DNA from: Pseudomonadota bacterium
Lineage (GTDB): Bacteria; Pseudomonadota; Alphaproteobacteria; Caulobacterales; Caulobacteraceae
Direction of reading: 5' to 3'
DNA: 53,705 nt
Assembly: GCA_019348195.1 (NCBI GenBank)
Contig: JAHWJX010000009.1
Location: 1 to 53,705 of the forward strand
Numbering within the stretch: the first letter of the stretch is position 1; each line of letters starts with the position of its first letter. The notes below the pieces were generated by a model. That model was given only the letters and a program-made list of their open reading frames with translations, ran no database searches and was not told the DNA's origin. Position numbers and translations under genes: made by a program. Shown here piece after piece: positions 17,887-53,705 of this stretch.

Positions 17887-17947
17887 GGGGCCCGACTAGC
17901 GCCCGAGGCGAGTCGGAGAAAGCGCGGCAGGGCGCCTCACCCGCATG

Positions 17948-43166: not shown

Positions 43167-43397
43167 TCACTGCTGGACGGGGCTGTCGCCATCACCAACC
43201 CCCTTGGCCTTACGGGCGATCTCGGATCGCTGCTCCGGCGTAAGCGCTTCAGGCCGCGCGGCGTCGCCCGTCTTTCCGCTCCGGCGATGGTGTTCCTTGG
43301 ACGGGTCCCTGTATCCTCCACCTCGGCGCTGGCGATCCTGCCGACCAGCACGGCCGCGCCGATCAGGTCGAACGCAGACTCGTCTCGGAGCCCGCAT
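43167..43397 (-). CDS. Small hypothetical protein, apparently frameshifted
   Basis: The 3' half in one frame (43167 to about 43310) reads DPSKEHHRRSGKTGDAARPE, LTPEQRSEIARKAKG and has coding-like third positions. It resembles the LTPEQR...IARKA motif of small alphaproteobacterial basic proteins. Upstream of about 43310 that frame turns Arg-rich with poor third-position G/C, while the adjacent frame becomes clearly coding-like (ESAFDLIGAAVLVGRIASAE). A single-base shift near 43305-43320 would join the two. Either a sequence error, a pseudogene or a misjudged start. It follows the lipoprotein gene on the same strand. Confidence 0.4.
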   Translation of the reverse strand: MRAPRRVCVRPDRRGRAGRQDRQRRGGGYRDPSKEHHRRSGKTGDAARPEALTPEQRSEIARKAKGVGDGDSPVQQ

Positions 43398-51853: not shown

Positions 51854-53705
51854 ATGTCTGACTCCACCCAGCCAGAGCAGGCGCGCCCTCGCGCCCTGTC
51901 CAACGCCGCCGTCCTGCGCTTCGCCTGGGCCCGCTGGACCCGTCGTCCGGGACGGCTGGCCGCCATCCTGGCCGTCACCCTGCTGGCCACGGTCTGCGAC
52001 CTGTCCATACCCTGGGCCGTCAAGGCCCTCACCGAGACCGTCTCCGACCCGGTGCGCCGCCCGGACGCCGCCTGGGCCGCCTGGGCCGGCCTCACCGGTC
52101 TGTACGTGCTCTTTTACAGCTTCCGGCAGGGGCTGTTCCGCCTGATGAACGGCTTTGCGGCCCGCAACATGGAGGACCTCACCAACGAGGCCTTCCGGCG
52201 TGTTCAGGCGTTCAGCGCCGATTGGCACGCCAACACCTTCGCGGGCTCCACCGTCCGCCAGGTCAGTCGGGCCATGTGGGGCCTGGACAGCGTCAGCGAC
52301 ACCGTTTTCCTGATGCTCGGGCCCGCCGTGCTGGTCCTGACCGGGCTGTCGGTGTCCCTGGCCATCAACGACCCGGTGATCGGGGCGGTCGCCGCCCTGC
52401 TGATCATTCTGTACGTCGCGGCCAACGTCGTTCTGAACACTCGTTATGTGCGCCCCGCCAACCTCCGCTCCAACGCCTTGGACAGCAAGTTGGGCGGCGC
52501 CCTGGCGGACGCCATGAGCGGCAACCCCACCGTGAAGAGCTTTGGCGCGGAGGAGCGTGAAACGGCACGACTGGGCGAGACCACCTCCGCCTGGCGCAGG
52601 GCTTCCATCGAAACCTGGACCCGTTTCACCGATGTGGGCCTGCTGATGAACGTGCTCCTGGTGGCGCTCCAGGCCTCGCTCACCGGGATGATGGTGTACA
52701 ACTGGGCGCAGGGGCGGGCCGATACCGGCGACGTCCTCTTCGCGGTCACCAGCTTCATGTTGATGAGCGGCTATCTCCGCAACGTGGGCGAGATGGTGCA
52801 GGGCCTGCAGAAAGGGGTCGACGACCTCACGGATGTGGCCGTGTTCATGCAAACGCCGCCTCAGGTCGGGGACCGCCCAGACGCTCCGGCCTTCCGGCCC
52901 GTCCGGGGCGAGGTGGTGCTGGATCACGTCACCTTCGGCTACGCCAACGCCGCTGAACCCCTCTACCGCGACTTCTCCCTGGCCATCGCTCCGGGCGAGC
53001 GGGTCGCCCTGGTCGGACCGACGGGGGCGGGGAAGTCCACCTTCGTCAAGTTGATCCAGCGCCTCTACGACCTCGACGGCGGCCGGATCCTCATCGACGG
53101 CCAGGACATCTCAACCGTGACCCAGGCCAGCCTGCGCCGGTCCATCGCCGTGGTGCCCCAGGACCCCGCGCTTTTCCACCGCTCGGTGGCCGAGAACATC
53201 AGCTACGGCCGGCCGGACGCCACCGCGGACCAGATCAAGGCCGCCGCGCGCCGCGCGCGCGCCCACGACTTCATCACCCGCCTGCCCCAGGGCTACGACA
53301 CCCTGGTGGGGGAACGTGGCGTGAAGCTGTCCGGCGGCGAGCGCCAGCGGGTGGCGCTGGGGCGGGCGCTCTGCTCCGGTCCCCGGCTGCTGCTGCTGGA
53401 CGAGCCGCTGGCGTCGCTGGACGCGGCCCTGCGGCGCAAGGTGCTCCCCTTCCTGCGCCGCGTGCGCGACGAGTTCGCGCTTCCCATGCTGCTGGTGTCG
53501 CACGACCCGGTAGAGGTGCAGGCGCTCTGCGACGACCTGGTGGTGCTGAACGAGGGCCGCATCGTCGCGCGCGGCGAGCCGCGCGCCGTGCTGGCCCGCC
53601 CCGAGGTGTTTTCGCTGGGCCAGGGGGAGGCGGAGGGGTTCCAGAACGTGATCCCCGCGCGCGTGGTGGAGACGCGCGACGGGGTGAGCGTGGTGCGCCT
53701 GGGCG
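51854..53705 (+). CDS. ABC exporter half-transporter with importer-type (ModC-like) C-terminus; partial, possibly chimeric
   Basis: Open to the window end (617 residues so far). Residues about 35-330 are an exporter membrane domain (LAAILAVTLLATVCDLSIPW, LLIILYVAANVVL). The nucleotide-binding domain starts conventionally: VALVGPTGAGKSTFVKLIQR (Walker A about 388) and GYDTLVGERGVKLSGGERQR (signature about 492). Beyond the signature it no longer resembles an exporter. It reads LGRALCSGPRLLLLDEPLAS, LDAALRRKVLPFLRRVRDEF, LLVSHDPVEVQALCDDLVVL, then EGFQNVIPARVVETRDG, which is the Walker B, H-loop and TOBE start of a molybdate/polyamine-type importer ATPase. The frame is continuous. An assembly join at the conserved signature is the simplest explanation. 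Confidence 0.8.
   Translation, partial: MSDSTQPEQARPRALSNAAVLRFAWARWTRRPGRLAAILAVTLLATVCDLSIPWAVKALTETVSDPVRRPDAAWAAWAGLTGLYVLFYSFRQGLFRLMNGFAARNMEDLTNEAFRRVQAFSADWHANTFAGSTVRQVSRAMWGLDSVSDTVFLMLGPAVLVLTGLSVSLAINDPVIGAVAALLIILYVAANVVLNTRYVRPANLRSNALDSKLGGALADAMSGNPTVKSFGAEERETARLGETTSAWRRASIETWTRFTDVGLLMNVLLVALQASLTGMMVYNWAQGRADTGDVLFAVTSFMLMSGYLRNVGEMVQGLQKGVDDLTDVAVFMQTPPQVGDRPDAPAFRPVRGEVVLDHVTFGYANAAEPLYRDFSLAIAPGERVALVGPTGAGKSTFVKLIQRLYDLDGGRILIDGQDISTVTQASLRRSIAVVPQDPALFHRSVAENISYGRPDATADQIKAAARRARAHDFITRLPQGYDTLVGERGVKLSGGERQRVALGRALCSGPRLLLLDEPLASLDAALRRKVLPFLRRVRDEFALPMLLVSHDPVEVQALCDDLVVLNEGRIVARGEPRAVLARPEVFSLGQGEAEGFQNVIPARVVETRDGVSVVRLG

Follow-up and report, generated by a model that had tools for sequence, protein, structure and literature searches.

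An exporter/ModC hybrid reading frame at the end of a Caulobacteraceae contig very probably arose by a false join

Introduction

At the 3' end of a draft contig from a member of the Caulobacteraceae, an open reading frame starts as one kind of ABC transporter and finishes as another. The window analysed here, 53,705 bases long, is the whole of that contig (G000:C153:1-53705, hereafter C153), which belongs to an assembly (G000) of 2,545,146 bases in 153 contigs, with estimates of 93.88% completeness and 0.4% contamination. The frame, at 51854-53704, stays open and runs off the end of the contig. A sequence-only reading of this DNA had described a type IV exporter that turns into a ModC-type importer ATPase at the ABC signature, and had offered two explanations: that two loci, perhaps from two organisms, were joined during assembly, or that this is a natural in-frame recombinant. 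We asked whether the hybrid protein is a real feature of the organism or a product of the way in which the contig was built.

Results

The 5' part of the frame (51854..53358, + strand) encodes a type IV ABC exporter half-transporter, from the membrane domain through the first part of the ATPase as far as the signature. Over its first 502 residues the protein is 99% identical to that of G001:C1:1008326-1009831 in a same-genus genome of 6 contigs (G001), our reference for collinearity, and together with the profile matches and the collinearity this marks it as the genuine 5' part of an exporter gene. Its first 502 residues, which exclude the tail, match ABC_membrane (PF00664) and ABC_tran (PF00005) over 51854-53361, both above the Pfam cut-offs, and the best NCBIfam matches are the exporter models PRK13657 and TIGR02204. 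Because the scores of these two models are under their curated cut-offs, the exporter subfamily is not fixed; the assignment to the exporters as far as the signature agrees with what had been read from the sequence.

The remaining 347 bases (53359..53705, + strand) form an out-of-place tail. It has no match at this place in G001 and represents part of a ModC-type gene for an importer ATPase, truncated by the contig end. The best NCBIfam match of the last 121 residues (53342-53704) is modC_ABC (TIGR02142) with 119.7 bits, over profile positions 137-233 of 353, as the earlier description of a ModC-type ATPase would lead one to expect. The score is under the whole-protein cut-off of 285.05 bits, the tail being a fragment. 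Residues LGRALCSGPRLLLLDEPLASLD and SHDPVEVQALCD of the tail are shared with ModC, and the stretch holding the Walker B, D-loop and H-loop motifs in the window copy is that of the tail, unlike in type IV exporters. A C-terminal TOBE domain is a feature of ModC; the tail, in which a TOBE-like start had been read, gave no TOBE match, although it extends as far as modC profile position 233, where the contig ends. The GC content of 0.749 in the tail versus 0.692 in the exporter part is weak evidence, and composition at a 500-base scale does not change clearly around the junction.

We then located the junction against G001. By BLASTN, window bases 1-53358 matched 74 kb of that genome in a single orientation and order, with some gaps and with long pieces at 93-96% identity, and no match was found in the 74 kb past window base 53358. 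Base by base, the two genomes are identical over 53318-53358 and the alignment is lost from 53359, which places the switch in the codons that follow LSGGERQRVAL, at 53358/53359 or slightly upstream of it. The switch thus falls at the signature, 347 bases before the contig end, in line with its earlier placement there within 400 bp of the end of the window. The identical stretch of 41 bases (53318..53358, + strand) encodes the ABC signature, and a false join would lie at its end or inside it. After this point the exporter gene of G001 goes on as LARAFLADARILVLDEATSSLD...IAHRLSTIR, and its frame, read after the signature as LARAFLADARILVLDEATSSLDVETERQ...IAHRLSTIR, reaches a normal stop at a total of 594 aa.

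The missing 3' part of the exporter gene is present in the same assembly. When the corresponding part of the G001 gene was used to search G000, it matched G000:C40:1-1454 at 96%, and the true continuation of the exporter is therefore found at a contig end elsewhere in G000. On the G001 scale, base 1 of this contig (C40) falls at window position 53405, 46 bases past the break, and the contig encodes ATSSLDVETERQ...IAHRL through to the stop codon. C40 is 3,565 bases long, and its match to G001 starts at the first base and stops no more than one base short of the opposite end. Both parts of the exporter gene thus exist in G000, with 46 bases absent between the contigs. The tail of C153 (347 bases) does not fit into that gap. 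The 5' part at 51854-53358 plus the continuation, as seen in C40 and in G001, corresponds to the type IV exporter half-transporters.

We also examined the exporter in relatives. Among 99 genomes of the family (G000 and G001 included) that were searched with the full chimeric protein, 60 matched at E <= 1e-120, and from these the exporter loci of G000 and 29 others (G001 included) were kept. With G000 set aside, each of the 29 loci, that of G001 counted, carries DEATSSLD beyond the signature, and IAHRL comes next in the same frame in 28; in the exception, L197, an unread codon follows DEATSSLDVETER and the sequence is then out of frame. The exporter/ModC junction occurs in 0 of the 29. Viewed from the other side, the 80 ModC-type loci that were the best of 573 relatives of the tail showed no fusion to an exporter; one of these loci (L078) is readable only 498 bases upstream. 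Open frames of more than 250 aa lie upstream of the match in 11 of these 80, with ModC-type sequence just before the match in 11/11. A search for the same junction in other genomes, which had been proposed as a check, thus came back empty in the loci read on either side. Among the titles listed in one literature search, none names a natural exporter/ModC fusion, by which its absence is not established.

These results bear directly on a natural in-frame recombinant, in which the second half of the exporter ATPase would have been swapped for that of a ModC-type importer. The single open frame, the complete set of ATPase motifs and a crossover in register at the signature, between homologous motifs, are what a real recombinant would be expected to give, and they count against a false join. 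However, a normal second half starts at base 1 of C40, where G001 predicts it, the exporter loci are normal in the relatives, the ModC-type loci hold no exporter fusion, and foreign-looking tails stand at other contig ends of G000 (see below). We consider such a recombinant very unlikely.

To look for the source of the tail, we searched G000, G001 and 58 further relatives for a close copy at the DNA level and found none; the best match outside the window was 69% over 223 bases. Some match to the tail at E <= 0.001 occurs in 40 of the 60 genomes (G000's own copy counted), and we take these common partial matches to reflect conserved ABC motifs, so that the absence of the tail rests on there being no close match. 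Within G000, the search gave as its best other mainly tail-side match 80% over 82 bases at C116, and the 60-genome search gave a match outside the window of 77% over 62 bases at C86; the first-look candidates scored were 40 in the former search and 11 per genome in the latter. At the protein level, in 398 genomes of a phylum sample, only G000 reached E <= 1e-28, at the window itself. Among the best 80 of 573 relatives, the best tail matches listed for species genomes were a Planctomycetota MAG (57% protein identity) and a Polyangia MAG (53%), and the closest tail relatives among the matches listed are ModC-type; a nearer donor than the 57% match may lie outside these 80. All 95 plasmid records that matched were below 60% identity to the tail. 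A ModC above the curated cut-off was found in neither G000 nor G001, by a search that was positive in 1 of 14 control genomes. A join to a copy in the same genome was also considered and is rejected, these searches having given no close copy of the tail and no ModC over the cut-off in G000. Most likely, the donor would be another organism of the sample and a different species, and the earlier suggestion of two organisms as sources is consistent with this.

The same searches weigh on another explanation, that a real foreign insertion bearing modC sits in the exporter gene, either throughout the strain or in a fraction of the population, and splits C153 from C40. Such an insertion would fit with C40 beginning 46 bases past the break, so that C153 and C40 are not joined. 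However, the left end of C40 carries no foreign bases, its match to G001 starting at base 1. Matching positions of two homologous genes, as seen at this join, are not required for an insertion, and no close relative of the tail is found among the sampled genomes of the genus and family. Its probability is very low.

To obtain a base rate, we compared both ends of ten other G000 contigs with the 24 stretches of G001 that hold their expected places, rather than with the whole of G001. In 8 of the 20 contig ends, an edge of more than 100 bases was unmatched, and the three of these eight tails that were traced further, at the left end of C83 and the right ends of C101 and C65, are absent from G001. 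The C83 and C101 tails both match SCO6880_fam above its cut-off, each over a different profile segment. Among 60 relatives, this family was found only in G000, only at these two contig ends, and in none of the other 59; none of 14 control genomes was positive in the same search, whose power is therefore seen on G000 alone. In both, the fragment reads inwards from the contig edge, and the ends fall on different G001 contigs, which argues that they are not two sides of one insertion. Thus the ends of C83 and C101 are probably foreign tails like that of the window. Open frames of 823 aa and 210 aa run across the C101 and C83 tails, respectively; since the C101 tail is also joined in an open frame, an in-frame join by itself is no sign of a natural fusion in this assembly. 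The remaining five of the eight unmatched ends may be natural variation or repeats, and reading by eye suggested a transposase in one of them, calcium-binding-type repeats in another and a likely tRNA region in a third.

The SCO6880-family fragments lie at G000:C83:1-480 (L157 1-480) and G000:C101:14505-15110 (L162 1395-2000). At the end of C65, G000:C65:108364-108812 (L164 1552-2000) holds a fragment that is phosphoribosyltransferase/ComF-like and absent from G001; there, similarity to G001 ends at a TGA; judged by eye, this triplet resembles the stop codon of the gene at that place.

The ABC signature is the site of greatest likeness between exporter and importer ATPases and would be the natural spot for a false join between them. 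We measured the longest exact run shared between 53300-53358 and each of the 80 ModC-type loci (the best of 573), and did the same with two control stretches, for which a longer part of each locus was compared. The signature stretch gave a median of 8 and a maximum of 17 bases, with only one locus at 16 or more, and each control stretch gave a median of 7 and a maximum of 12. This difference is modest and no more than suggestive of a join seeded by a short stretch in common, although with the true donor the shared run may be longer than 17 bases.

Discussion

We conclude that the 3' end of C153 is chimeric through a false join and that the exporter/ModC protein is very probably not a real feature of this organism. 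This follows from the presence of the true 3' part in C40, from the relatives in which the gene is normal and from the foreign-looking tails at other contig ends. Of the two earlier alternatives, the assembly join is thereby supported, and the natural recombinant is opposed by the same evidence. A remaining variant would have a real in-frame exporter/ModC recombinant in a subpopulation, beside a normal allele kept in C40, and this too we regard as highly improbable.

In the sequence of events that we favour, bases 1-53358 of C153 are genuine genome sequence, and at the exporter signature a ModC-type gene fragment of 347 bases was added to the contig, its source most likely being a different organism present in the sample. 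The exporter gene itself resumes in C40 after the 46 missing bases. We infer that the join was made via a short shared stretch, in assembly or in library preparation, and that the donor of the tail is a different species; seeding by conserved signature DNA fits such a join.

Chimeric contig ends in drafts share with C153 an abrupt loss of similarity near the end, a continuation on another contig and other ends of the same kind. In contrast to the usual cases, the join in C153 is in frame, in register and inside a motif common to two ABC families, and the end of the contig therefore resembles a fusion protein. This serves as a warning that a false join in a conserved motif can yield a protein that is in frame and has every ATPase motif. 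Several contig ends of G000 carry foreign-looking tails despite the contamination estimate of 0.4% for the assembly. Apparent fusions at the ends of draft contigs should first be compared with a relative and with the remaining contig ends.

The comparison with G001 also bears on the surroundings of the window. Measured on the G001 scale, base 1 of a further contig, C98 (L155), lies ~660 bases past the left end of C153, and these positions suggest the contig order C98, C153, C40. Within the window, two insertion/deletion differences separate the genomes: 11 bases at 17929-17939 stand against about 1.2 kb in G001, and 206 bases at 43171-43376 against about 1.5 kb.
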